A stretch of DNA of 64,000 bases, taken from positions 372,001 through 436,000 of the forward strand of contig NC_009464.1 in assembly GCF_000063445.1 (NCBI RefSeq), given 5' to 3'. Both the position numbers and the translations under genes were made by a program. Under the pieces are notes generated by a model. That model was not told the origin of the DNA. It did not search any database and saw only the letters and a program-made list of their open reading frames with translations. Position 1 is the stretch's first letter. The number at the start of each line of letters is the position of its first letter. This document shows, piece after piece, positions 11,739-42,305 of this stretch. The DNA comes from Methanocella arvoryzae MRE50 (GTDB lineage Archaea; Halobacteriota; Methanocellia; Methanocellales; Methanocellaceae).

Positions 11739-12348
11739 ATGGTAGTTTTGAATGGTTGTCGGGAATCGGGCGAGCAGGAACAGGCAGGAACTGGAATTGG
11801 CTACGTGGCATTTCTCAGGGGCATCAACGTCGGCGGCCATTCGATATTGAAGATGGCTGACCTGGGGAAAGCGTTCGAAGCCATGGGCTTCAGGCACGTG
11901 AAGACGGTGCTCGCCAGCGGCAACGTGCTCTTTGAGGCGTCGGAGGAAAATACCGCTGTGCTTTCTGAAAAGATCATGCAGCAGCTCCGGGAAGCCTTCG
12001 GGCGGGAAATACTGGTGATCGTGCGCACCGTTGATGAACTCAGAGAGCTTGAAACTGAGCATCCCTTCGAGGGCATCGTGGTACGCCCACAGACCCGGCT
12101 GGTCGTAATGTTTCTATCGGATAACATAATACAGCCGAACCTCTCCGATCTGCCGGTAAATGAAGACTTTAGAATTATCGGCGTCTACGACCGGACAATA
12201 TGCAGTGTTATATGAAGAGCGAGGTACTGGGACCGTGCAGCTGATGGGTGCTCTGGAGAACAAATTCGGAAAGCAGGTGACGACTCGCACCTGGAGCACC
12301 GTGCTCAAGGTTTTGAAGGCCGGCGCTGCCCTGCAAGAAAAAAGATAG
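11739..12348 (+). pseudogene. DUF1697 protein gene with a frameshift
   Basis: The first frame (ATG 11739 to stop 12215) contains YVAFLRGINVGGHSI, KTVLASGNVLF and HPFEGIVV, all typical of DUF1697. The family's C-terminal block appears in another frame: ALENKFGKQVTTRTWSTV, in the reading ending at 12348. The two halves join if one base is gained or lost around 12190-12212, after DFRIIGVYDRT. Either the gene is broken or the sequence has an indel error. DUF1697 proteins are about 180 residues and of unknown function. Confidence 0.8.
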
Positions 12349-12527: not shown

Positions 12528-13748
12528 ATGAAACTCGATAAGGGCACGCTATTTCTCGCGTTTACAGGTATAGTAATAATCGTTCTGCTTATCGCACTTA
12601 CAGCTACTGTTGCTACCGGCCCGACACGGCCGGCGGCATATGCATTGCCAGTACCAGACTCGTCGGGCAATGAGGGGGCTTCCATGTGGGGCCCGGAGAA
12701 CAATAGACCCGAGCCAGCACAACCCGTTGTGAAGACCTCAAATTACCCGGGGTTTTCCACGAAGTACTATTTAGGTTACCCAACCATCTGCTATGATGGC
12801 GCGGGTAATCAATATACAGGCCAGGATTTGACGTTAAACGATGATGGTACTATCACCTTAGTGGTTGTGTGTCATAACCTTAGACAAGGGTTAAACCAGC
12901 AGACCTTTACGGGAGGCATCTGGTATAAGGTAAAAGGCAAGGGCCACCAGATTTACTTAAACCTGGATGAAAATGACGTCAGATCTCATGAGTCAGGAAT
13001 AACTTTTTTCGGTTTTGAGCTTGTCACAGACAAGGTCGTCGATATTGTAGACGATTATGGAACAGATGGTTTCCGCATTAGCAACCTTGCAGGATATGGA
13101 GGGGATGAATATACCGCATGGGATGCAGGCTATTCTACGATGACTGCCCCGGCAGACCTGATCGTCCAGTACATCGATTCGTGCGTACCGGCAGATGCGG
13201 CACGACCGTACATTGAAAGAGGCTATACTGCACAGCAAGCGATACCGTACATTAGCTACAATATGCCCGTAGATACAGCAGCGTATTTCATGCAGCGGGG
13301 CATCTCCGCAGACCTTTGCGGCCCTTACCTTGCCGCGGGCGCATCACTGGAAGATACGGTCGCTTACCTGAACTCCGGCTATACTGCTGAACAGATTATG
13401 CCCTTCGTCAAGGCAGGAGTCAGCGAGAGCGACACTATGGCATACCTCGATGCCGGCGTCACATACGACAGGGCCAGACCGTATATCGGAGCAAACCTAC
13501 CGGCGAGCTTGTCGGCACCTTATGCAGCGAGTACATACTCGTTCGAGCAGTGCGTGCCATATATCAACGCTAACATAAGCCTGAGCAAGTCCCGGCCGTT
13601 CCTGCTCCTCAATATACCTTCAGACCAGGCGGTCGTCTACATCAACAACGGCATTCCGGCGATGACGGCAAAGCCCTATGTCGACGCGGGAGTCCCGGCC
13701 GAGAAGGCGGTGGATCAGATCAGGCAAGGCATACCACCGACAGTTTAG
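12528..13748 (+). CDS. Membrane-anchored surface protein with fifteen tandem 13-residue repeats
   Basis: 406 residues. Residues 8-30 form one transmembrane helix (LFLAFTGIVIIVLLIALTA), then a Pro/Ser-rich linker and a globular domain (about 55-205) with two cysteines. From residue 212 to the end there are fifteen consecutive 13-residue units with no insertion or deletion, such as ARPYIERGYTAQQ, IMPFVKAGVSESD and AKPYVDAGVPAEK. The approximate consensus is A-x-P-Y-I-x-A-G-I-P-x-D-x. Each unit probably forms a short helix plus turn, stacking into a solenoid outside the cell. No known family is recognised. Single gene flanked by unrelated neighbours. Confidence 0.8.
   Translation: MKLDKGTLFLAFTGIVIIVLLIALTATVATGPTRPAAYALPVPDSSGNEGASMWGPENNRPEPAQPVVKTSNYPGFSTKYYLGYPTICYDGAGNQYTGQDLTLNDDGTITLVVVCHNLRQGLNQQTFTGGIWYKVKGKGHQIYLNLDENDVRSHESGITFFGFELVTDKVVDIVDDYGTDGFRISNLAGYGGDEYTAWDAGYSTMTAPADLIVQYIDSCVPADAARPYIERGYTAQQAIPYISYNMPVDTAAYFMQRGISADLCGPYLAAGASLEDTVAYLNSGYTAEQIMPFVKAGVSESDTMAYLDAGVTYDRARPYIGANLPASLSAPYAASTYSFEQCVPYINANISLSKSRPFLLLNIPSDQAVVYINNGIPAMTAKPYVDAGVPAEKAVDQIRQGIPPTV
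13161..13745 (+). repeat. Region coding for 15 x 13-residue protein repeats
   Basis: Fifteen in-frame 39-base units. Conservation is at the protein level (Y/F at position 4, I/L/V at 5, G/N at 8, P/S/T at 10) and the DNA units have diverged, so the array is old rather than a recent slippage expansion. Confidence 0.8.
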
Positions 13749-15983: not shown

Positions 15984-17296
15984 GGCTCTTCTCCGATTGT
16001 CGGGTGAGGAACTGCTAGTTGTAATGGGTGATTTTAAGCCACCGCTTGCCCTTGTAATGTTGGCACAATATCATGGGTAAGCGGTGTAAATACTCGTTAG
16101 TATTCAAGAGCCAGTTTAATTTTAAGGGATTTAAGATTGCTGGTATCAGTCATGATGATGAACGGCTTCTTGTCGAGTTAGAGAGATCAGGGAGGCCTCT
16201 TTTGTGTCCTCGTTGTGGCAGGCGTGTTAAACGTGTTGAGGATGAGTATGTCCGAGTGGTCAGGGACCTGGATTTGGGGTGTCTGCGTTGTTATGTGCAG
16301 TTCCCTCAATACAAGATCTTTTGCCGGTGTGGCCACAGGGGTCATGAGAAACTGGAGTTTGTAAGGGAGTACTCGAGATGCACGAAGAGACTGGAAAAGC
16401 ATGTCTCGGTTCTCTGTAAGCATATGAGCATTAAAGAAGCCGCCCAGGTCGTAGGGTTAGACTGGAAGACTGTGAAGAGTATTGATAAGAATACGATGAG
16501 AGAATCCCTTGTCCCGTTAGATTCCAGTAATCCCCGGGTGATCGGCGTGGATGAGATCGCTTATGAGAAAGGCCATAAATACCTCACAGTAGTCCGGGAT
16601 GTTGAAAAGGGCTGTGTTCTCTGGACGGGCATTGGGAGAAAAGAGGTGACACTCGACCTGTTCTTCGCCATTCTAGGATACGAGAAAAGCATGAACGTTA
16701 AAGCGGTGGTCATGGATATGTGGGATCCATATATTGCCAGCGTCCGTAAAAACACGAGGGCGGAGATCGTGTTCGATAAGTTCCATATCGCTAAGAAAGC
16801 AGGGGAATGCATAGACAGTATCCGTAGACGGGAATTCAGGGGTGCAGGCAAAGCTGAACGAAAACACTGGAAGGATAAGCGTTTTCTTATCCTTAGCAGG
16901 GAGAAGAATCTCTCCAGTGATAAGAGGGAGACTCTTCAGGAACTATTGGAGTTGAACCAACCCTTGTACAAGGCATACTTGTTGAAAGAACAACTCCTGG
17001 ATATCCTGGACGCCCGCCACCAGAACCATGCAATGCTCCGGTTGCAGACATGGAAAGAGAACGTGGAGAGTAGCGGATTGGAGGAGTTCCAAGCTCTGGT
17101 AAGGACATTGGATCGTTACATGTACGGTGTGACCGCCCTCTTCAAACATCATATCACTAATGCCGGTAGCGAAGGTTTCAACACCAAGATCAATATCATC
17201 AAAAGAAGAAGTTACGGCCTCCAGGACCTGGAGTATTTTATGCTTAAAATATTAACAGTCTGCCGGAAACCCTCATCCTAAAAATGGAGAAGAGCC
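15984..17296 (+). mobile_element. ISL3-family insertion sequence (1313 bp)
   Basis: The left end GGCTCTTCTCC (15984-15994) and the right end, whose complement also reads GGCTCTTCTCC (17286-17296), form perfect 11-bp terminal inverted repeats, with further similarity (GTGAGG / ATGAGG). The flanking 8-bp target duplication is ACATTTAT at 15976-15983 and 17297-17304. Eight-base duplications are standard for ISL3. The intact transposase, exact ends and exact duplication point to a recent, probably still active insertion. Confidence 0.93.
16073..17281 (+). CDS. ISL3-family transposase
   Basis: 402 residues. An N-terminal zinc-binding region has CPRCGRRVKR and a further CRCGHRG. The helix-turn-helix is CKHMSIKEAAQVVGLDWKTVK, and the DDE nuclease domain starts at VIGVDEIAYEKGHKYLTVV and continues with VVMDMWDPYIASV and the C-terminal NAGSEGFNTKINIIKRRSYG, the conserved ISL3 glutamate block. 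Length is normal for the family. The gene fills the IS, with its stop 15 bases from the right end. Complete and uninterrupted, so likely functional. Confidence 0.93.
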   Translation: MGKRCKYSLVFKSQFNFKGFKIAGISHDDERLLVELERSGRPLLCPRCGRRVKRVEDEYVRVVRDLDLGCLRCYVQFPQYKIFCRCGHRGHEKLEFVREYSRCTKRLEKHVSVLCKHMSIKEAAQVVGLDWKTVKSIDKNTMRESLVPLDSSNPRVIGVDEIAYEKGHKYLTVVRDVEKGCVLWTGIGRKEVTLDLFFAILGYEKSMNVKAVVMDMWDPYIASVRKNTRAEIVFDKFHIAKKAGECIDSIRRREFRGAGKAERKHWKDKRFLILSREKNLSSDKRETLQELLELNQPLYKAYLLKEQLLDILDARHQNHAMLRLQTWKENVESSGLEEFQALVRTLDRYMYGVTALFKHHITNAGSEGFNTKINIIKRRSYGLQDLEYFMLKILTVCRKPSS

Positions 17297-22422: not shown

Positions 22423-24172
22423 CCTATAACCCACATTCCGCTGGTAATTTTTAGTCATAGTATTTTTTGTACGGTTCGCCTAACAGGTCAAGGATTGTTC
22501 GCAGATCGTCTGTGATATGAGTGATCTCGGTCAGACTGTGATTTTCTATGTTTACATGCACTTCAGCCACCCCTAAGAACAGGTAGAATACCCATTTCAT
22601 TGTAGGGTTTTGGATTCGTTTTTTAGTCTGGCTCCGAACAGTCTTCCCTGACGATTTCAGCTTCTCTCGAAGCTTCCATTCAAGTATGCTGTAGATGAGA
22701 AGGCACAAGACCATGATCATTGCCAGGGCCTCGATCCGCTCTGGTTTTTTCAGGTACACGTTCGATACTCGGAACGTGTCATCTTTCAGGAATCTGAATC
22801 CCCGTTCGACGATGCCCTGATCCTTGTAATCGGTGAGTAGTGATTCCCCGTCTCTTTCAACGTCGTTGGTGGCAATGATGAATCTACCCAGCCGCTCCCG
22901 TCTCCGAGTCACTTCTTCCTGGTTGGTCTTGATCGTTGCCTTAATCCTGTAAAACTCTTGAACCGGTTCGTTCTTCCTGGGTCTGCCTCTGCCATTCTTC
23001 TTCCGGAAGGCCTCCGTGGAAACCGCTTCGAATTTTACCAATGGGTGATCCAGGATCCATTTGTGGGCGGCTTTCAAAGCATCTTCTCCGCAAAAGAACT
23101 CTTGGTTACGCAGGTGCACGAAACTTTTCTCTGTAGCATCTAACTCCACCGATAGTTTCCGTTCGAAGGTGCCAGTCATCGTTTTCTGCATCTCCTTCGA
23201 ATTGACCAGGATCCACTTCTGAGGGACTCCAGCATAATCAGACAGGGTCTCATAATACGAGTAACGCTGGTCCTTACAGGGTTTCAGCTCCACGTCACTT
23301 CCCAGAAGCTGAGCCGCCTCCTTGATCGTGTTCGGAACACGGCTAATCCAAAAAGTACTGACGCCAACACCCTGCAAATTCTCCTTCGTATAAAAGGCAC
23401 TATCAGCAACATGATACACCTTATCCTTTGAACTGAGGCCACGTTTCAAAGATTCAACCATCTCCATGAGGCTCTTACGATCACTATGATTCCCACTGAA
23501 CGCCTTCATAAACAATGGCATACCATGATGGTTACAAGCTAACCCCACCACGAACCGTTTCAAGTCCCAACGCCCATCCTTAGGCAACCCAAGATTGATC
23601 TTGATGTCCGCCTCCCCCTCTTCCGGGTACTCGCCATACAAGCTGAAACTAGTCGTATCCAAATGCAAAAGATGTGTACGTAAGCCCAGTTTCTTCATCA
23701 CGCCATTAAGAATGATTTCGTTGAACAACTCGGTCGGCCCGTACTCGCTGATACAATCCAACGTCTTCCCCAAAGCATCATCATTCAAATACTCAGGACT
23801 TACGCCCCCTCCAAGAAGCCGCTCACATGGCACTTTACTGAAAAACTCAGGAGTCATGTATAATGGCCGATCAACGAATCCCAGCCCATTCAGGATCATC
23901 GCTTTAACCGTGACACCATGACCAATCCGATGCACCCGTTTTTTAGGAAGCACCTCATCGATAATGCCAGCTACCCCATACTCATCATAACAGCCGGCAA
24001 CCAATCCCAGATGATCAAGCATCCTCGTATCAACGTTTTTCATTAACCAGTGATACGAGAAGACAGCATAAAAACAAGAAGCAAGAACAGCAAGCCATTA
24101 CACTGCAAAAGCGACCCACTCAGGGCAGTAAATCAAAAACCCAAAATTTACCAGCGGAAAGTGGGCTATAAG
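22423..24172 (-). mobile_element. IS1634-type (IS4 superfamily) insertion sequence
   Basis: Imperfect terminal inverted repeats of about 27 bases: TATAACCCACATTCCGCTGG from 22425 and, on the complement, TATAGCCCACTTTCCGCTGG ending at 24170. One intact transposase gene fills it. I could not find a convincing target duplication, so the outer ends are good to about 3 bases. It is inserted in element B between the origin block and the integrase. Confidence 0.85.
22451..24043 (-). CDS. IS1634-family transposase
   Basis: 530 residues. The N-terminal domain (DHLGLVAGCYDEYGVAGIID) is the one found in IS1634 transposases, then the DDE domain: HLDTTSFSLYGEY for the first D, VADSAFYTKENL for the second, and a Y-x2-R-x3-E-type region around DQGIVERGFRFLKD. 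The C-terminal LAMIMVLCLLIYSILEWKLR helix is also typical. Full length and uninterrupted, so probably functional. The start is ATG 24043, 129 bases inside the right terminal repeat. Confidence 0.9.
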   Translation of the reverse strand: MKNVDTRMLDHLGLVAGCYDEYGVAGIIDEVLPKKRVHRIGHGVTVKAMILNGLGFVDRPLYMTPEFFSKVPCERLLGGGVSPEYLNDDALGKTLDCISEYGPTELFNEIILNGVMKKLGLRTHLLHLDTTSFSLYGEYPEEGEADIKINLGLPKDGRWDLKRFVVGLACNHHGMPLFMKAFSGNHSDRKSLMEMVESLKRGLSSKDKVYHVADSAFYTKENLQGVGVSTFWISRVPNTIKEAAQLLGSDVELKPCKDQRYSYYETLSDYAGVPQKWILVNSKEMQKTMTGTFERKLSVELDATEKSFVHLRNQEFFCGEDALKAAHKWILDHPLVKFEAVSTEAFRKKNGRGRPRKNEPVQEFYRIKATIKTNQEEVTRRRERLGRFIIATNDVERDGESLLTDYKDQGIVERGFRFLKDDTFRVSNVYLKKPERIEALAMIMVLCLLIYSILEWKLREKLKSSGKTVRSQTKKRIQNPTMKWVFYLFLGVAEVHVNIENHSLTEITHITDDLRTILDLLGEPYKKYYD

Positions 24173-24228: not shown

Positions 24229-25443
24229 TTAGGCAGATTCTTCAAAGACTTCGCAGAGCATGTCCCTTATCTTCGGATGCTCCATTAGTTTAATCAACCT
24301 CTGTTTTGCCTCGCTTTCCTCTTCTCGCAGTGATTTAACGCCCTCTTTTAACGACCTGGCACACTTTGGGCAATACATGTTTGTCGGCTCATTCACGTAA
24401 CCACAAACACACTTAACCGGCTTTATCGAAGATTCTGGTTTAGTTGCTGGAGCTGCTATACCCGCCTTTGAAAGAATGGCTTTTTCCAGGTCGTTATCTG
24501 CCAGTTTCAGGTAGAAATCAAACATTTTGGTCGATTGCTTTTTCCACATCATCTTTTTGATAACGCTCTCCTGGTAGCCTTCCCTAATCATGTTCGTAAT
24601 TCTGGAAGTCCTGAACAGCTTAGGGGTAACTGGCTTTGTGATGCCAGCAGCCGTTTTTGCGTTATCAATCAACCTGGTAACAGCCTTATACGTTATCGGC
24701 TGGTCCCGCTCAAGCAGCTTGAAAACAAAATCATCATTCTTAACATCCCCTAAATCATTCCTGTACTGCATCAGGTACGCTTTGCAGGATACAACGTATA
24801 CAACCCGTTCCCCACCTACTTTCTGGTCTTCTAGCCTGACCTTGCAATCAAGGTCTTTGAAAGTTAAGTCATTCCAGGTCAACCGGCCCAGTTCTCCGAC
24901 TCTCGCTCCAGTCTCGTATAACGTCATGATAAACGCTCTGTCTCTGGAATTCTTACATGCCTTTATCATCGCCTGAATATCGTCGGCAGTCAGGATGTCT
25001 TCTGACTTGATGCTATCAAAAGTCTCCTGGGGTGGCTCAATCTCATTAAGCTCTTCATCATCAATCGGAGCAATAATCTTCTTCCGAATCAGGAACCTGG
25101 TAAACGGCTTAATAGTCTTCACCATTCCACGCTGCGAACTTTGGCTATACTTCCTTCCGCAATATGCGCTATCGCCGTTCTGCAATGCCCTCAAACCTAA
25201 AAGCAAGTCATCTATGGTCATCTGGTCGTAAGGGACTTTAATAAAACGCCGCCACTGCGTTAACATTGTGGCAATTCGAGCCGCACGCCTTTCAATAATT
25301 TTACCCTTCGCCAACTTACTTACAATGTAATTTGTGATGAGCTTCGCATCGCTTGCCGTTATTGTTCCCTTATCAACGTGCTTTGCAATAATGACTTCGT
25401 AAGTGTACTTGTCATTATAAGCTAAGAAATTCTCATTATACAT
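24229..25443 (-). CDS. Tyrosine recombinase / integrase with C-terminal zinc ribbon
   Basis: 404 residues from ATG 25443 (GGTGA upstream; ATG 25449 and TTG 25479 are alternatives). The catalytic domain has the first arginine in YETGARVGELGRL, a K-x2-R box in TPKLFRTSRITNM in place of the usual H-x-x-R, and the nucleophile tyrosine in MFDFYLKLAD. The K-x2-R variant is known in archaeal virus integrases. After the catalytic domain comes a zinc ribbon (CVCGYVNEPTNMYCPKC) and a charged helix. It is next to the tRNA-Gln gene whose 3' end is the apparent att core, so it is the likely integrase for element B and perhaps A. Confidence 0.9.
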   Translation of the reverse strand: MYNENFLAYNDKYTYEVIIAKHVDKGTITASDAKLITNYIVSKLAKGKIIERRAARIATMLTQWRRFIKVPYDQMTIDDLLLGLRALQNGDSAYCGRKYSQSSQRGMVKTIKPFTRFLIRKKIIAPIDDEELNEIEPPQETFDSIKSEDILTADDIQAMIKACKNSRDRAFIMTLYETGARVGELGRLTWNDLTFKDLDCKVRLEDQKVGGERVVYVVSCKAYLMQYRNDLGDVKNDDFVFKLLERDQPITYKAVTRLIDNAKTAAGITKPVTPKLFRTSRITNMIREGYQESVIKKMMWKKQSTKMFDFYLKLADNDLEKAILSKAGIAAPATKPESSIKPVKCVCGYVNEPTNMYCPKCARSLKEGVKSLREEESEAKQRLIKLMEHPKIRDMLCEVFEESA

Positions 25444-25665
25444 GGACATCACCGTTTTGAGGCAGGCGGTCAAATGCAAACGAGATACTCTCTTATTCTT
25501 GCATTGTTCCCTTTATGTGCCGCTTATCCATGTACGATGGGCTTATAACCAAAACAGCCGGGACTTAAACCGCTCTACGGAAGCCAAGCATAGTGGTATT
25601 TTACAGCCATCTATGACTCTTAAAAAATTGCGTTTTTTGTTTGGAGTTATTACTTAAGAGTATCA

Positions 25666-25738
25666 TAGCCCCGTTCGGATTCGAACCGAAGTCAAAGGAT
25701 CCAGAGTCCCCTATGATTGACCGCTACACTACGGGGCT
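25666..25738 (-). tRNA. tRNA-Gln (CUG)
   Basis: Read on the minus strand, AGCCCCG pairs with CGGGGCT as the acceptor stem, GGTTCGAAT is the T-loop, and the anticodon loop is CTCTGGA with anticodon CTG. Discriminator base A; no encoded CCA. The anticodon stem contains two G-U pairs. No intron. The gene is intact, with its 3' end serving as the integration site of element B. Confidence 0.92.
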
Positions 25739-26119: not shown

Positions 26120-27010
26120 ATGCCCGATCCTACCTCCCCTAAGCCGGACTGGCTGAAGGTACGCCTGCCGAGGACTGATAAGTACGGCGCTGTGAAAGAC
26201 GTGATCAAGAAATACAACCTTAACACGGTCTGCAGCAGCGCAATGTGCCCGAACGCCTTCGAGTGCTGGGATGGAGGCTGCCTGACATTTATGGTGCTCG
26301 GGAACACCTGTACCAGGGCCTGTCGGTTCTGCACGGTCACCCATGGTCCTGCCGGAGAGCCTCTTGATTCGAACGAGCCGCAGCGGCTGGCAGCAGCGGC
26401 TAAAGAGCTTGATCTGAGTTACGTAGTGATCACTTCTGTGGACAGGGATGACCTGCCGGATTATGGTGCGGGGCATTACGCGGCGTGTATCAGGGCGGTG
26501 AAAGAGCAGTTGCCCGGCGCCCGGGTAGAGGCGATTATTCCTGATTTTACGGGCAGGCTGGACTTGCTGGAGCAGGTCGTGGATGCCCGGCCTGACGTCA
26601 TCTCCCACAATATCGAGACTGTGGAGCGGCTATCTCCTTCTGTCCGGGACCGGCGGGCGGGTTACTATCGATCGCTCGACGTGCTGCGGGATGTCAAGCG
26701 GGTTAATCCTCACATGCTGACTAAATCGTCGCTGCTGTTGGGCATGGGGGAGGAGGACATCGAGATCAAGGAGGCGTTGCACGACTTGCAGGAGGCCCGG
26801 GTGGATATTGTCACTCTCGGCCAGTACCTGCGGCCGAGTATCCGGCAGTGGCCTGTACACCGGTATGTTGCCCCTGGCGAGTTTAGCGAGCTGGCAGAGT
26901 ACGGGAGGTCGCTGGGCTTCAAATACGTGGCAGCAGGGCCGTTCGTGCGGACTTCGTACAGGGCGGGAGAGCAGTATGTTTCGGTGATAGCGGATTCCAG
27001 GATGGCATAG
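26120..27010 (+). CDS. lipA: Lipoyl synthase
   Basis: 296 residues. Two iron-sulfur cluster motifs are visible: CSSAMCPNAFEC (C38, C43, C49; auxiliary cluster) and CTRACRFC (C64, C68, C71; radical SAM cluster). The C-terminal SSY-like serine motif is represented by VRTSYRAGE. The enzyme inserts two sulfurs into the octanoyl group on E2 domains. It starts the operon with E1 alpha, E1 beta, E2 and E3, spaced 2 bases from E1 alpha. A TATA box about 20-28 bases upstream suggests a leaderless message. Length is normal for LipA. Confidence 0.95.
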   Translation: MPDPTSPKPDWLKVRLPRTDKYGAVKDVIKKYNLNTVCSSAMCPNAFECWDGGCLTFMVLGNTCTRACRFCTVTHGPAGEPLDSNEPQRLAAAAKELDLSYVVITSVDRDDLPDYGAGHYAACIRAVKEQLPGARVEAIIPDFTGRLDLLEQVVDARPDVISHNIETVERLSPSVRDRRAGYYRSLDVLRDVKRVNPHMLTKSSLLLGMGEEDIEIKEALHDLQEARVDIVTLGQYLRPSIRQWPVHRYVAPGEFSELAEYGRSLGFKYVAAGPFVRTSYRAGEQYVSVIADSRMA

Positions 27011-27012
27011 AA

Positions 27013-28092
27013 ATGGACGAGAAATTTTTGTATAAGCTGGTCAAAGGCGAGACTTTTCGCATCGTGTCCCAGGATGGCAGCGCAAACGAGCTTGACCCGG
27101 GCCTTCCCGAGGACCTGCTGCTGAAGATGTACCGACTGATGGTGCAGGCGAGGACGTATGACGAGAAGGCGTTGAAATTGCAGCGGGGCGGGAGGATGGG
27201 CACGTATCCCCCGATCGCCGGCCAGGAAGCCATCCAGATCGGCAGTGCGCTGGCTATGGCAGAGGAGGACTGGATGGTGCCGTCGTACAGAGAGATCGGC
27301 GCCATGATCGCCAAAGGCGTGCCGATGCAGACGTTGTACATGCTCTGGATGGGCAACGACTACGGGAACCGGACCCCTGACAATGTCAGGTGCCTGCCAA
27401 TCGCCATTCCTGTCGGAAGCCAGGCTTTGCACGCTACCGGCATGGGCTGGGCAGCCCGGCTTAAAAAAGAGAAGCTGGCGATCACCTGCTATTTCGGGGA
27501 TGGTGCCACTTCGAGGGGCGATTTCCACGAAGCAATGAACTTTGCCGGCGTTTACCATGTGCCCGTCGTCTTCATCTGCTCCAACAACCAGTTCGCTATC
27601 TCTACGCCGAATCCTTTGCAGACGAGGGCGGAGACTTTCGCGCAGAAGGGCATCGCTTACGGTATCCCGAGCTACAGGCTCGACGGCATGGACGTGCTGG
27701 CCTCCTATGTTATAGTCAAAGACCTGCTCGACCGGGCCAGAAACGGTGAAGGGCCTGCCTTTATTGAAGCGATCTGCTACCGGTTCGGGCCTCACACCAC
27801 ATCGGATAATCCCGACCTCTACCGGTCTAAGGGGGAGGTCGAGAAAATCCGGAAGGAGACAGACCCGATCGACCGGTTCAGGAATTACCTTGTCAATAAG
27901 GGGCTCTGGGACATCGACAAGGAGACCCGGTTACATGACGAGATGGATGCCCTGATAGATAAGGCTGCAAAAGAGGCAGAACAGGCTCCCGCTCCTGAGT
28001 TTGAAGAGCTCTTTAAGCACGTGTTCGCGGAGGAGCCGCAGTTCCTGAAAGAAGAATACGAGTACTACAAGCGTGTCTCCGGAGGGAAATAG
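27013..28092 (+). CDS. pdhA: Pyruvate dehydrogenase-type E1 component, alpha subunit
   Basis: 359 residues. Thiamine diphosphate-binding motif is GDGATSRGDFHEAMNFAG ending with VFICSNNQFAIS, and the substrate-region GRMGTYPPIAGQEAIQIG matches E1 alpha of the PDH / branched-chain group. The phosphorylation-loop-like RFGPHTTSDNPDLYR is present. E1 decarboxylates a 2-oxo acid and passes the acyl group to lipoate on E2. Sequence alone does not settle pyruvate versus branched-chain substrate. The gene sits 2 bases after lipA and 1 base before the E1 beta ATG. Confidence 0.92.
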   Translation: MDEKFLYKLVKGETFRIVSQDGSANELDPGLPEDLLLKMYRLMVQARTYDEKALKLQRGGRMGTYPPIAGQEAIQIGSALAMAEEDWMVPSYREIGAMIAKGVPMQTLYMLWMGNDYGNRTPDNVRCLPIAIPVGSQALHATGMGWAARLKKEKLAITCYFGDGATSRGDFHEAMNFAGVYHVPVVFICSNNQFAISTPNPLQTRAETFAQKGIAYGIPSYRLDGMDVLASYVIVKDLLDRARNGEGPAFIEAICYRFGPHTTSDNPDLYRSKGEVEKIRKETDPIDRFRNYLVNKGLWDIDKETRLHDEMDALIDKAAKEAEQAPAPEFEELFKHVFAEEPQFLKEEYEYYKRVSGGK

Positions 28093-28093
28093 C

Positions 28094-29071
28094 ATGGCGA
28101 TGCTGAACAACATCCAGGCAGTCAATGACGCGCTGATGGTCGAGATGGGGCGAGACCCTTCGGTCATCGTCATGGGCGAGGACGTAGGCAAGGAGGGCGG
28201 CGTGTTCAGGGCGACTACGGGCTTGCAGGAGAAGTTCGGACGAGAGCGGGTCGTGGATACGCCGCTGTCTGAGAACGGCATCATCGGCACGGCGATCGGG
28301 CTTGCCCTCAACGGGATAAAGCCAGTGTGCGAAATTCAGTTCTCCGGGTTCGTTTACGCTGGCTATGAGGAACTCATTGCCCATGCTTCCAGAATAAGGC
28401 AGCGAACCATGGGCCGATTTTCAGTACCCATGGTGGTGCGGATGCCTTATGGTGGCGGCGTGAAGGCGCTGGAGCATCACAGCGAGAGCTACGAGACCAT
28501 TTTCCTCCATGATCCTGGGCTGAAAGTCGTGGCCCCGTCTACGCCCGCCGATCTGAAAGGGCTCCTCATCGCCTCAATTCGTGACCCCGATCCGGTCATT
28601 TTCCTGGAGCATATCAGGCTGTACCGGGCTCACCGGGAAGAGGTGCCGGATGGCGAATATACCGTTCCGATTGGCAAGGCAAAGGTGACCTTGCCCGGCA
28701 AGGACCTGACTATAGTGGCGTGGGGTGCCATGGTCAACGTATCACTTGAGGCGGCTAAAACGCTGCAGGAACAGGGTATCGCTGCCGAAGTCATCGACCT
28801 GCGCACTTTGAAGCCCCTGGACAAAGACGCAATCCTCGATTCTGTAAAGAAGACGGGCCGGCTGGTCATCGTAGAGGAGGCACATCGAATACTGGGCTTC
28901 GGGTCGGAGATCAGCGCCATTGTCAGCGAAGAAGCGATCCTGCACCTGAAAGGCCCAGTCATCCGGGTGTCCGGCTACGACATCCGGTTCCCGCTGTACA
29001 AGCTGGAGGATCAGTACCTGCCTGACCCGGAGCGGGTCGTAGCGGCTGCGAAAGAAGTCATGCAATACTAA
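28094..29071 (+). CDS. pdhB: Pyruvate dehydrogenase-type E1 component, beta subunit
   Basis: 325 residues from ATG 28094, chosen because GGAGGG lies 7 bases upstream; a longer frame from 28073 would overlap E1 alpha. Recognisable blocks are VIVMGEDVGKEGGVFRAT, VDTPLSENGIIG, VRMPYGGGVKALEHHSES and VIDLRTLKPLD, all typical of E1 beta. With the alpha subunit it forms the alpha2-beta2 thiamine enzyme. The gap to E2 is 13 bases. Confidence 0.93.
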   Translation: MAMLNNIQAVNDALMVEMGRDPSVIVMGEDVGKEGGVFRATTGLQEKFGRERVVDTPLSENGIIGTAIGLALNGIKPVCEIQFSGFVYAGYEELIAHASRIRQRTMGRFSVPMVVRMPYGGGVKALEHHSESYETIFLHDPGLKVVAPSTPADLKGLLIASIRDPDPVIFLEHIRLYRAHREEVPDGEYTVPIGKAKVTLPGKDLTIVAWGAMVNVSLEAAKTLQEQGIAAEVIDLRTLKPLDKDAILDSVKKTGRLVIVEEAHRILGFGSEISAIVSEEAILHLKGPVIRVSGYDIRFPLYKLEDQYLPDPERVVAAAKEVMQY

Positions 29072-29084
29072 TGCTGGTGATCTT

Positions 29085-30371
29085 GTGACGTACGAGTTCA
29101 AGCTTCCCGATCTGGGCGAGGGCATCACTTCGGGAGAAATAAAGAAGTGGAACGTGAAGAAGGGCGACAAAGTAGAGGAAGACGACCCGATCGCCGAGGT
29201 CGAGACAGATAAGGCAGTCGTAGAGCTGCCAGCACCCGTTTCCGGTACAGTAGAGGATATCAAGTTTAAGGAAGGTGATATGGTCCCGGTCGGCAGCGTG
29301 ATCGCTGTCATCCGGGAAGAAGGCGAAGAGACTAAGGCGCCGCCACCGCCGCAGGAAAAGGCGCCTTCTCCTGTACAGGAGAAGGCGATCGAGAAGGCTA
29401 CTGCAGAGGCGAAGGAGCCGGAAGTTAAGCCGCCTGCCGAAGCTGTCGGCAGAGCCCCCGGAAAAGTCCCGGTGCTGGCCACTCCGGCGACCCGTATGCT
29501 GGCAAAACAGCTGGGCGTAGACATCGAATCAATAAAAGGCACGGGCCTTGGCGGCCGTATTACTGACGAGGATGTCAAAGCCGCATCAGCAAAGCCAGCC
29601 GCAAAGCCAGCGCCTGCTCCTGCTCCCGCTCCCACTCCTGCGCCGGCCGCTCCTCCCGCCGGGCCTGCCGGGCTGGAAGAACGGATACCACTGCGGGGCA
29701 TCAGGCGGACGATTTCCGACAACCTGATGCGCTCCCTCCAGCATACTGCGCAGGTGACTGTTTTCGACGATGCAGACGTGACTAAGCTGAGCGAGCTCCG
29801 GGAGCAGGTGAACGGCGCCCGTAAAGACGGAGTCAAGGTGAGCTACCTTGCTTTCACTGTGAAAGCCGTGTCTGCAGCTCTCCGGAATCATCCTGTCCTG
29901 AACGCCAGTATTGACGACGAGAAAGGCGAGATAGTGCTCAAGAAGTACTACAATATCGGCCTGGCCATCGACACTCCCAGAGGCTTGATGGTAGCACCTG
30001 TGAAGGATGCCGATCGCAAGAGTATCGTGCAAATCTCCAGGGAGATCAAAGAGCTCGTCGAGCTGGCGGAGTCGGGGAAGATCGGCGTTGAGCAGCTACG
30101 GGGAAGTACATTCACTATCGCCAACATCGGCAGTATCGGGGGGCTTTTTGCCACGCCTATCATCAACCCGCCGGAATCTGCTATTCTTGAGATGCAGCAG
30201 ATAAGGGATATGCCCCGGGTCTGCGACGGCAATGTCTGTGTGCGCAAGGTGATGAACCTGAGCCTGACGATCGACCACCGCATCATCGACGGCGCCGAAG
30301 GCCAGCGTTTTCTGAACGAGGTCAAAGGCTATCTCGAAGACCCGGCTGCACTACTGGTAAATATGCCGTGA
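29085..30371 (+). CDS. pdhC: Dihydrolipoamide acyltransferase (E2)
   Basis: 428 residues from GTG 29085. The lipoyl domain carries ETDKAVVE with the acceptor lysine K43, then a Pro/Glu/Lys linker, the peripheral subunit-binding domain (ATPATRMLAKQLGVDIESIKG), a Pro/Ala-rich hinge and the catalytic domain ending with LTIDHRIIDGAEGQ (catalytic H and D). One lipoyl domain only, as in most Gram-positive and archaeal E2s. It is the core of the multi-enzyme complex and the target of LipA and of the LplA/LplB pair at 32160-33175. Confidence 0.93.
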   Translation: MTYEFKLPDLGEGITSGEIKKWNVKKGDKVEEDDPIAEVETDKAVVELPAPVSGTVEDIKFKEGDMVPVGSVIAVIREEGEETKAPPPPQEKAPSPVQEKAIEKATAEAKEPEVKPPAEAVGRAPGKVPVLATPATRMLAKQLGVDIESIKGTGLGGRITDEDVKAASAKPAAKPAPAPAPAPTPAPAAPPAGPAGLEERIPLRGIRRTISDNLMRSLQHTAQVTVFDDADVTKLSELREQVNGARKDGVKVSYLAFTVKAVSAALRNHPVLNASIDDEKGEIVLKKYYNIGLAIDTPRGLMVAPVKDADRKSIVQISREIKELVELAESGKIGVEQLRGSTFTIANIGSIGGLFATPIINPPESAILEMQQIRDMPRVCDGNVCVRKVMNLSLTIDHRIIDGAEGQRFLNEVKGYLEDPAALLVNMP

Positions 30372-30382
30372 GGCGATTCTTT

Positions 30383-31786
30383 ATGGTTGTCGGCGACATT
30401 GAAGTCGGGACAGATGTCCTCGTGATCGGCGCCGGGCCGGCGGGATATACGGCGGCAATCCGGCTCGGGCAGATGGGCATGGACGTGACCCTGGTCGGCC
30501 CGGAGATCGGGGGTATCTGCCTTAATCATGGCTGTATCCCTGTCAAGGGGATCGTCCGCACGCTCGATCTGGTTGCCGACGTGACTGCTGCAGAGGCCCG
30601 GGGAATCAAAGCTCACGGGGTGGAAGTTGATCTAAACAAGGTACAGGCATGGAACGCCCAGGTCATCCGGAAGCTGCAGGCCGGCATCAGGAGCCTCCTG
30701 AACGCAAGTGGCGTACAATTGTTCGAAGGCACCTGCTCGTTTACGTCGTCGACCACAGCGGTGGTACGTATTCACGGGAGCACTCAGCATATCAGGTTCA
30801 GGAAAGCGGTCATCGCCACAGGTATGCACTATATTGTCCCTGAGGGTATCCGGCCTGATGGCAGGCGCATCATTTTTCCCCACGCTGTAGCTCATCTCCA
30901 TAAGGTCCCGGGTACCGCCGTTATTCTGGGCGGCGGCATAGACGGGGCGACAATGGCCTCCCTGCTTGCTAAGATGGGTACCAGAGTGACCCTCGCCTAT
31001 AAAAGTGCCTCGTTGGTCCCTGCAATCGATGATGACGTTTTGCAGCCGGCGATGAAAAGCCTGGCAGACCTGGGAGTGCAGACTTTCCCTCAGGCCTCAT
31101 GGGAAGTGCATTCCGAGGGCGGAGAAGTCGTCATTCGATCCGGGAACGAGACGACCACACGAACGCCAGATCTGATATTGATTTGCTCGCCTACAAAAGC
31201 GAACGTTCAGAACCTGTCCCTGGACCGGACAAAAGTCAGGCTCACGGATAAGGGGTTTGTCGAGGTCGACGATCGTTATCGCACGGCCGACCCCTCGATC
31301 TATGCCATTGGAGACGTGCTCGGTGGCAGACGTAATGCAAGTGTGGCATTCCGCGACGGGCTCTCTGTGGCAAACATCATAGCGGGAAAGCCCGGGCTGC
31401 CTGATTACCAGGCCATGACTCTGACCATCGAGGCCGGGCTTGACATAGCTTCAGCGGGCATGGGGGAAAAAGAGGCGAAAAAGGCAGGCATAGACGTCAC
31501 GGTGAGCCGCTCCCCGTATTCTGCCAACGGCGGGGCTGCTACATACGGTAAACAGGATGGCTTTATCAAAGTAGTGGCGGAAAAGCAGACCGGCCGCATC
31601 CTCGGCACACAGATCGTGGGACCCCGTGCCGGCGATCTGATCGGAGAAGCCCTGCTGGCCATTGAAATGGGAGCAAGGCTGGAAGATGTTGCGCTGACCC
31701 TGCATCCCCACCCGGAGCTCAACGAGATCTTTGCCGACGCCTGCGCCAGGGCTGCGGGGTTGTCGGCCAACGTTGTTAAAAAATGA
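30383..31786 (+). CDS. lpdA: Dihydrolipoamide dehydrogenase (E3)
   Basis: 467 residues from ATG 30383 (GAGG about 9 bases upstream); GTG 30368 overlapping the E2 stop is the alternative. The FAD-binding GAGPAGYTAAIRLG, redox disulfide CLNHGCIPVKG (C-x4-C), NAD-binding ILGGGIDGATMASLLAKMG, YAIGDVLGG and the C-terminal HPHPELNEIFADA (catalytic H and E) are all present. The disulfide motif has H and V where most E3s have V and S. It reoxidises dihydrolipoamide with NAD+. Last gene of the PDH operon. Confidence 0.93.
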   Translation: MVVGDIEVGTDVLVIGAGPAGYTAAIRLGQMGMDVTLVGPEIGGICLNHGCIPVKGIVRTLDLVADVTAAEARGIKAHGVEVDLNKVQAWNAQVIRKLQAGIRSLLNASGVQLFEGTCSFTSSTTAVVRIHGSTQHIRFRKAVIATGMHYIVPEGIRPDGRRIIFPHAVAHLHKVPGTAVILGGGIDGATMASLLAKMGTRVTLAYKSASLVPAIDDDVLQPAMKSLADLGVQTFPQASWEVHSEGGEVVIRSGNETTTRTPDLILICSPTKANVQNLSLDRTKVRLTDKGFVEVDDRYRTADPSIYAIGDVLGGRRNASVAFRDGLSVANIIAGKPGLPDYQAMTLTIEAGLDIASAGMGEKEAKKAGIDVTVSRSPYSANGGAATYGKQDGFIKVVAEKQTGRILGTQIVGPRAGDLIGEALLAIEMGARLEDVALTLHPHPELNEIFADACARAAGLSANVVKK

Positions 31787-40335: not shown

Positions 40336-41436
40336 TTAGTCCACCCCCAGCCAGACTTCGCCTTCAGGTTTGGCCTTCCTTACGATGGCGGCGAGATCCT
40401 TGAAGGTGACGTCCTGGCCACCGATGCCGGCGATTACGTTGAAGACCTTGACGTCGTGCCTGAACCGGATTTCCTGTGCGAGGATACCACCGGCGCCCGG
40501 GGAGTAATCGCGGTCCAGCACAACAACACGCTTGCCCTCAAGAATGCTGAGGTCCGGGAACGGCCTGAACTGCCTGACTCTGACCGCGCCTGCTTTCACG
40601 CCTTCCTTGCGCAGCAGGTCCACGGCCATTTCAGCCTCCCTCGCGATGGTGCCCATGCCTACAATAACGACTTCGGCATCGTCTGTTTTGTACTCCATAA
40701 CCGCAGAGTATTTGCGCCCGAACCGCTCTGCGAACTCTGCCTCGATCTCTTTCATTAGCCTGCCCGCCAGATCCATATCGTCCTTGATCATGCGGCGGAA
40801 CTTAAAGTAGTCTGCCGGGCCGGTCAGGTTGCCATACGACATCGGGTTTTCAGTGTCGATCGCGTGAGGCATGTTAATCTCAGGCAGGAAGTCGCCTGTT
40901 TCGGTAATATCCAGCGGCTGGATCGCGTGGCTGAGGATAAACCCGTCGAGGTTGATCATGCAGGGCAGGTACACAGACTCAGCGAGCTTGTAGCCCATGA
41001 TCACCGAGTCGTAGACTTCCTGCACCGTCGCAGCGTAGAACTGCATCCACCCGGTGTCTCTCTGGGACAGGGCGTCCGTGTGCTCAGCCCATATATTCCA
41101 GGCCGGGCCGACAGACCTGTTGACATTTGCCATGACTATAGGCAGACGTGCGCCCGCCGCCCAGTGGATCATCTCGTGCATGTAGAGCAGGCCATGGCTC
41201 GAGGTAGCCGTGAAAGCCCTGGCGCCTGTGGCGGATGCACCGATGCAGGCGGCAAGCGCCGAGTGCTCGCTTTCGACCCGGATATAGGCGGCCTTCATCT
41301 TGCCGGTCTCGACGAAGTTCGCCACTGTCTCGACCACTTCCGTCTGCGGGGTGATTGGGTAAGCTGCGACGACTTCCACGTCGCACTCCTTGACTGCGTA
41401 GGCAACCGCCTGGTTGCCCGTTGCCATCTTCTTCAC
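40336..41436 (-). CDS. porA: 2-oxoacid:ferredoxin oxidoreductase, alpha subunit
   Basis: 366 residues from GTG 41436, overlapping the beta stop (ATG 41427 is an alternative). [32 protein letters not shown], with the YPITPQT motif, and [28 protein letters not shown] are the usual pyrimidine-domain blocks. It binds CoA and forms the catalytic core with beta. Similarity seems closest to the pyruvate and 2-oxoisovalerate enzymes rather than 2-oxoglutarate types, because a separate delta subunit is present. Confidence 0.88.
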
Positions 41437-42293
41437 TGCACTAGCCCCCTGATCCTCTGCATGCCCAGTTCAACCTCTCTCTTCATACTCTCTATGTCCG
41501 CTCCCTTGAAACGGCCCTGCAGCCTGATGTAATCATCTATCGGCGCCGGCTTCTTTAGCGCCGCCGAGGTCGGCGGGCTCAGGGTGACCTTACCGTTCTC
41601 GTACTCGTACAGGAACCACATACCGGACCGTACAGCCAGCTTGCCCAGCTCGATCGACTTTTCAGTCGGATACCGCCACCCGGACGGGCAGGGGACGTGT
41701 ATGTGTAGGAACTTGGTGCCCTCGATGGAGAGAGCCTTCTGCGTCTTCTTCAGGAGGTCCCGGGGGAAGGCTGCGCTTGCCGTAGCCATATAGGCTGGCC
41801 GGTGAGCCATGACGATGAAATCGATATCCTTCTTGGAATCTTTACGGCCCGTAGGAGTGGTGGTAGTAATCGCTCCGTAAGGTGTGGAACCGCTCTTTTG
41901 CATGCCCGTGTTAGAATAAGCCTCGTTATCGTAGCAGACGTACAGGATGTTCGCGTTACGCTCGATGGCGCCGGATAATGCCTGTATGCCAATGTCCACG
42001 GTGCCGCCGTCGCCGGCGAACACGATCACGTTCTTGCCCTTGTTCCTCGCTGCTGAGGCGATGCCATCGGCTGCCGCAGCCGCGGCCGCGAAGGCTATGT
42101 TCAGCACAGGAACGCCATAGGCCGATTTGGGGAACGAACCCTGGCACACCGTCGAACAGCATGCGGGGTTTACGATGATCGTATTTTTCCCCGCCGCCTT
42201 CAAGATATAGCGCAGGGCGAGCATGGCCGTACAACCGGCACAAGCAGTATTGCCTTTATAAAGGTATTCTTCCCGGGGGATGTCGTCTAGCAT
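41433..42293 (-). CDS. porB: 2-oxoacid:ferredoxin oxidoreductase, beta (thiamine) subunit
   Basis: 286 residues from ATG 42293 (GGTGGG upstream); GTG 42305 is an alternative. Cysteines in ACAGCTAML and ACCSTVCQG bind a 4Fe-4S cluster, GDGGTVDIGIQALSGAIERN is the thiamine site, and YDNEAYSNTGMQKSGSTPYG is characteristic of the pyruvate/2-oxoisovalerate beta subunit. First gene of the operon. The gene order beta-alpha-gamma-delta is the reverse of the common gamma-delta-alpha-beta. Confidence 0.9.
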   Translation of the reverse strand: MLDDIPREEYLYKGNTACAGCTAMLALRYILKAAGKNTIIVNPACCSTVCQGSFPKSAYGVPVLNIAFAAAAAAADGIASAARNKGKNVIVFAGDGGTVDIGIQALSGAIERNANILYVCYDNEAYSNTGMQKSGSTPYGAITTTTPTGRKDSKKDIDFIVMAHRPAYMATASAAFPRDLLKKTQKALSIEGTKFLHIHVPCPSGWRYPTEKSIELGKLAVRSGMWFLYEYENGKVTLSPPTSAALKKPAPIDDYIRLQGRFKGADIESMKREVELGMQRIRGLVQ

Positions 42294-42305
42294 GTTACCC
42301 ACCAC

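Follow-up and report, generated by a model that had tools for sequence, protein, structure and literature searches.

A genus-restricted, membrane-anchored Methanocella protein with fifteen 13-residue units predicted to form an alpha-solenoid

Apart from PPR proteins, classical alpha-solenoids have units of similar or greater length than the PPR unit, each built of two or three helices and about 30-45 residues long. To our knowledge, no classical family has one helix per 13 residues. The PPR unit spans 31-36 residues (PMC11514114). An array in a protein of Methanocella arvoryzae MRE50 resembles the classical families in its stacked short tandem helices (predicted here), its ungapped units of fixed length and its few conserved core positions. 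It differs in having one 9-residue helix per 13 residues, and at most a 26-residue pair. A 13-residue helical repeat was not found described in open-licence papers.

The window analysed here is a stretch of 64,000 nucleotides, positions 372001-436000 of a 3,179,916-base single-contig archaeal genome. The start and layout of the repeat gene are identical in the ortholog of Methanocella sp. PtaU1.Bin125. The gene and its parts, in window coordinates, are the following.

12528-13748, + strand: whole gene of the membrane-anchored 13-residue-repeat protein, a 406-residue open reading frame with an ATG start
12540-12614, + strand: N-terminal transmembrane helix or signal anchor, residues 5-29, a hydrophobic stretch that AlphaFold2 (AF2) models as helix 5-29
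12615-12734, + strand: Pro/Gly/Asn-rich linker seen in the sequence, about residues 30-69, pLDDT mostly <30
12735-13151, + strand: Methanocella-specific domain, residues 70-208, with predicted strands, pLDDT <50
13152-13736, + strand: predicted alpha-solenoid, residues 209-403, modelled by AF2 as fifteen helices of about 9 residues, the last at 391-399
13161-13199, + strand: unit 1, IVQYIDSCVPADA
13200-13238, + strand: unit 2, ARPYIERGYTAQQ
13239-13277, + strand: unit 3, AIPYISYNMPVDT
13278-13316, + strand: unit 4, AAYFMQRGISADL
13317-13355, + strand: unit 5, CGPYLAAGASLED
13356-13394, + strand: unit 6, TVAYLNSGYTAEQ
13395-13433, + strand: unit 7, IMPFVKAGVSESD
13434-13472, + strand: unit 8, TMAYLDAGVTYDR
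13473-13511, + strand: unit 9, ARPYIGANLPASL
13512-13550, + strand: unit 10, SAPYAASTYSFEQ
13551-13589, + strand: unit 11, CVPYINANISLSK
13590-13628, + strand: unit 12, SRPFLLLNIPSDQ
13629-13667, + strand: unit 13, AVVYINNGIPAMT
13668-13706, + strand: unit 14, AKPYVDAGVPAEK
13707-13745, + strand: unit 15, AVDQIRQGIPPTV, a degenerate C-terminal cap in which P-Y is missing and the helix is kept in the AF2 model

The linker is poorly conserved with the ortholog. The domain that follows it is probably beta-rich, as the predicted strands suggest. Of the 197 genomes searched, it occurs in just the two from Methanocella, apart from one marginal match (E 0.04), and no convincing relative was found in Pfam or in those genomes. 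Neither this domain nor the array matched Pfam, NCBIfam or PHROGs above cut-off, and neither had a significant match among PDB sequences.

Residues 212-406, the C-terminal half of the protein, divide into fifteen units of 13 residues with zero indels, just as the preliminary description had stated. That description also called the repeats exact, which holds for their length only. It does not hold for their sequence, since the mean pairwise identity between units is 24.5% for protein and 40% for DNA. This low identity marks the array as old rather than recently duplicated in tandem. The periodicity is nonetheless far above chance. Across lags 13, 26, 39 and 52 the mean BLOSUM62 self-similarity takes values of 0.85, 1.43, 0.87 and 1.07, respectively; none of 2000 shuffles exceeded -0.05 over lags 5 to 39. 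The remainder of the 406-residue protein shows no periodicity.

The units follow the consensus [ATCSI]-x-P-[YF]-[ILV]-x-[AS]-[GN]-[IVY]-[PST]-A-[DE]-x. Most constant are positions 10 (Pro/Ser/Thr in all fifteen units), 4 (Tyr/Phe in 14/15) and 8 (Gly/Asn in 13/15). Pro occupies position 3 and Asp/Glu position 12 in nine units each, and Ala occupies position 11 in seven. Position 1 favours a small residue, position 5 is aliphatic and position 9 is aliphatic or Tyr. The array also differs from known repeats, as had been proposed for TPR, HEAT, ankyrin and pentapeptide repeats. The period of 13 (26) does not fit TPR, ANK, HEAT, ARM, PPR or Sel1 repeats, and no Pfam family matched at E<=10. Pentapeptide repeats have a period of 5 and form a beta-helix, whereas here the period is 13 and helices are predicted.

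The strongest period is 26 rather than 13. Units two apart are more alike than adjacent units (p = 0.006 in MRE50 and 0.019 in the ortholog; 20000 unit permutations), while an even/odd parity test that takes in every pair of units gives a weak result (p = 0.03 and 0.09, respectively). Since units two apart exceed neighbours in likeness, the helices probably sort into two alternating layers, giving a 26-residue structural (A/B) repeat. The single-helix period proposed earlier agrees with the one helix per 13 residues in the AF2 model, with the qualification that the natural unit may be this 26-residue helix pair.

Two AF2 models were made. The first used the full-length protein as a single sequence without an alignment, and it placed 14 of the 15 repeat helices, with pLDDT 80-93 across much of residues 240-310. 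The second used residues 199-406 with two sequences, MRE50 and the ortholog. This repeating model has all fifteen helices, a mean pLDDT of 93.0 and a pTM of 0.78; AF2 can be over-confident on repeats, and this pTM leaves the superhelix geometry uncertain. In fragment numbering the helices run from H11-19 to H193-201 in steps of exactly 13, and nearly all have 9 residues. Each starts at position 11 of its unit and ends at position 6 of the following one, and the turn comprises unit positions 7-10, x-G-[IV]-[PST]. The structural phase is thus slightly offset from the sequence units, with the first predicted helix beginning at residue 209 (13152). In this model each unit is predicted to give a helix stacked in one superhelix, a rod or coil, as expected of an alpha-solenoid. 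The mid-helix Pro found in 9/15 units is unusual for an alpha helix.

A fold search with the array model gave no PDB match at E <= 0.001 and nothing among viral models. The best PDB fold matches were the designed left-handed alpha/alpha toroids 5byo, 4yxz and 4yxx, at E 0.05-0.17 and a TM-score of about 0.2, which is not significant. These toroids are closed or curved stacks of short helices; they are artificial, and their two-helix repeats are longer than the repeat of the array. PriB/SSB-like matches to the full-length single-sequence model were rejected as meaningless because they fall on its low-confidence beta part. The suggestion of an undescribed solenoid fold is therefore in keeping with the family, PDB-sequence and fold searches, and it stands as a prediction. 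The model supports a lineage-restricted alpha-solenoid of a new short-unit type.

The predicted turn also resembles a known nucleic acid-binding motif. Helix-hairpin-helix (HhH) motifs and the array both have a G-h-x-x-x-x-A turn between two short helices, and the array turn, G-[IV]-[PST]-x-x-x-A, recalls the HhH hairpin G-h-G-x-x-x-A. The array could then be a tandem HhH-like structure for binding extracellular DNA or RNA, in a ComEA-like layout. Archaeal HhH pieces chosen by a 13-residue G-to-G pattern all align with it in one phase, although this agreement is partly imposed by the search pattern, and weak fold matches to DNA polymerase beta were seen at E 5-8. However, the second Gly of the GhG signature is replaced by Pro/Ser/Thr in the array, giving G-h-[PST], and profile comparison by hhalign reached a probability of only 12%. 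The array is also net acidic, with 17 D+E and 11 K+R in MRE50 and 23 and 15 in the ortholog. We consider an HhH-like role very improbable.

The only ortholog detected, that of Methanocella sp. PtaU1.Bin125, is split across two contig ends. Its array also has 15 units, colinear with those of MRE50, and for 14/15 MRE50 units the best match in the ortholog is the unit with the same number. This colinearity indicates that the array was complete before the species split and has neither grown nor shrunk since. Between paired units, Pro3 is identical in 13/15, Tyr/Phe4 in 12/15 and Gly8 in 11/15. Amino-acid identity over the array is about 60%; identities at the three codon positions are 74/77/48%, and four-fold sites are 44% identical. 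The difference between about 60% amino-acid identity and 44% at four-fold sites points to purifying selection on the protein.

Constant length together with unit-specific conservation suggests a specific partner or a fixed spacing for the array, not a phase-variable adhesin. If spacing were all that mattered, the array would be a passive spacer or stalk that fixes the distance to the S-layer or another surface contact, with no specific ligand surface. The fixed copy number and the lack of indels between the two species fit such a role. The units, however, have each retained their own identity across species, with no drift to a common consensus, and the array lies at the C-terminal end, not between an anchor and a head. 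A passive spacer is thus an unlikely reading.

The preliminary description had proposed counting copies in other Methanocellales; the array was detected in the genus Methanocella only. Unit-profile and array-profile searches did not detect it in two other Methanocellia genera, nor anywhere else among 295 to 393 Halobacteriota genomes. A scan of 85,000 species genomes relied on exact matches to short peptides, a method that distant relatives would escape. Viral contigs scanned with the array, the ortholog alignment and a bacterial consensus gave nothing. Three candidates were rejected as chance matches: L006 (G118, E 0.004) is MutS, L022 (the MRE50 genome itself, E 0.07) is a multi-pass glycosyltransferase-like membrane protein, and L048 (G057, E 0.009) is antisense to an HMG-CoA-synthase-like gene.

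Stretches of the W-x-x-A-G-F-x-P-E-E-A type occur in bacterial proteins. Probing with this pattern brought up proteins from Nonomuraea, Euzebya and Acaryochloris records. The W-x-x-A-G-F-type stretches lie in hypothetical proteins (L019:1899-2654 in Nonomuraea, L018:1188-2318 in Acaryochloris, and L017:1992-2630), two of the three clearly period-13, and no Pfam family covers their repeats. The bacterial consensus probe also matched the DotG decapeptide repeat (PF25296), which repeats an AGF-type turn with a period of 10 against 13 here. PF25296 did not match the Methanocella protein.

The Methanocella unit profile scores 23.7 bits on the Nonomuraea stretch LRRLLRAGVPADVARAYADAGWDGAE, against a maximum of 12.3 in 1000 shuffles, and 11.5 bits on the Acaryochloris protein, a score reached by 3/1000 shuffles. 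Each of these two proteins is period-13 by itself (0/500 shuffles). The Euzebya protein was not significant either with the Methanocella unit profile or in its own period-13 test. The Nonomuraea and Acaryochloris arrays share with the Methanocella array the period, an aromatic residue at position 4, G at 8, a hydrophobic residue at 9, S/T/P near 10 and A at 1. They differ in having Trp for Tyr, no mid-helix Pro and, among the sequences read, no evident N-terminal transmembrane helix. Because bacterial proteins carry the same G-hydrophobic-[PST]-xxx-A turn and period 13, the motif is not purely archaeal. The sequence link between the arrays is modest.

These arrays could belong to a broader, uncatalogued family of 13-residue helical repeats shared with bacteria, of which Methanocella acquired or retained a local version. 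The scores above shuffles, the independent period of two of the bacterial proteins and the absence of a covering Pfam family argue for this origin. Against it, a direct tblastn with the Methanocella protein was empty in plasmids and phages, an A3 profile search of the Euzebya and Acaryochloris records missed the arrays there, and the Euzebya protein lacks significance. Convergence could also easily produce a G-hydrophobic-[PST] turn between short helices. We regard a shared family as rather doubtful; it is compatible with a genus-specific surface protein and differs from it on origin. Somewhat less doubtful, and still tentative, is that a natural class of alpha-solenoids with one 9-residue helix per 13 residues (a 26-residue pair) exists uncatalogued, scattered across archaea and bacteria.

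The location of the array is suggested by the N-terminus. Lys2 and Lys5 stand on the N-terminal side of the hydrophobic helix; on its other side the first Lys or Arg comes no earlier than residue 34. By the positive-inside rule this distribution would place the array outside the cell. The protein would then be extracytoplasmic, at the cell surface, as the earlier proposal of an archaeal surface protein had it. The signal anchor is consistent with that proposal, and the surface location derives from the transmembrane helix and the charge rule; its archaeal part is qualified by the bacterial proteins that share the turn and period. The opposite N-out topology would make the protein an N-terminally anchored cytoplasmic scaffold. 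The array has few N-glycosylation sequons (only one is present), as might be expected inside the cell. The charges flanking the helix point the other way, and we judge a cytoplasmic location quite improbable.

Our favoured, probable explanation is that the protein is specific to the genus, anchored in the membrane and extracytoplasmic, and that fifteen helices make its C-terminal half a rigid alpha-solenoid, serving as a scaffold or binding arm for another protein or a surface polymer. From the sequence and the DSSP assignment of the model, Gly/Asn at position 8 would terminate each helix. The hydrophobic residue at position 9 would be buried in the core, which Tyr4 and Ile5 would line, and Pro/Ser/Thr at position 10 would cap the following helix. 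Small residues at positions 1 and 11 may allow tight packing of adjacent helices. The protein would thereby display a rigid, acidic, Tyr- and Pro-rich solenoid facing outward.

The gene neighbours give no functional or partner hint in either Methanocella genome. In MRE50 the gene is flanked by a DUF1697 gene and a LysE-type exporter gene, and in the ortholog by genes for an acyl-CoA ligase and a ferritin-like protein, which differ from the MRE50 neighbours (the exporter and both ortholog neighbours were named from reading the sequences). The upstream DUF1697 gene (window 11739-12345; Pfam 1.6e-35) stops early at 12215. Beyond this point, what looks like a DUF1697 C-terminus, EERGTGTVQLMGALENKFGKQVTTRTWSTVLKVLKA, seems to continue in a different frame; this tail alone scored nothing in Pfam. 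The gene is probably frameshifted or a pseudogene. A few kilobases downstream of the repeat gene lie transposase-like genes at 16073-17281 (ISL3-like) and 22451-24043 (IS1634-like). A tyrosine-recombinase-like gene (24229-25479) adjoins tRNA-Gln (25666-25738), and together these genes may mark an integrated element. Further along, at 26120-31786, a LipA-like gene is followed by an apparently complete pyruvate/2-oxoacid dehydrogenase operon (E1 alpha, E1 beta, E2, E3), and a 2-oxoacid:ferredoxin oxidoreductase-like pair lies at 40336-42305. A methanogen would be expected to depend on ferredoxin oxidoreductases.

Should the model of the array be correct, a natural helical solenoid would be built from very small pieces, single-helix units of 13 residues. 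Such a unit would be useful for repeat-protein design and for understanding how solenoids arise from short peptides. For an orphan membrane-anchored Methanocella protein the analysis offers an initial structural hypothesis, along with a profile for seeking related arrays in bacteria and archaea, and the interest of the array would grow if it and the bacterial ones turn out to form one family.
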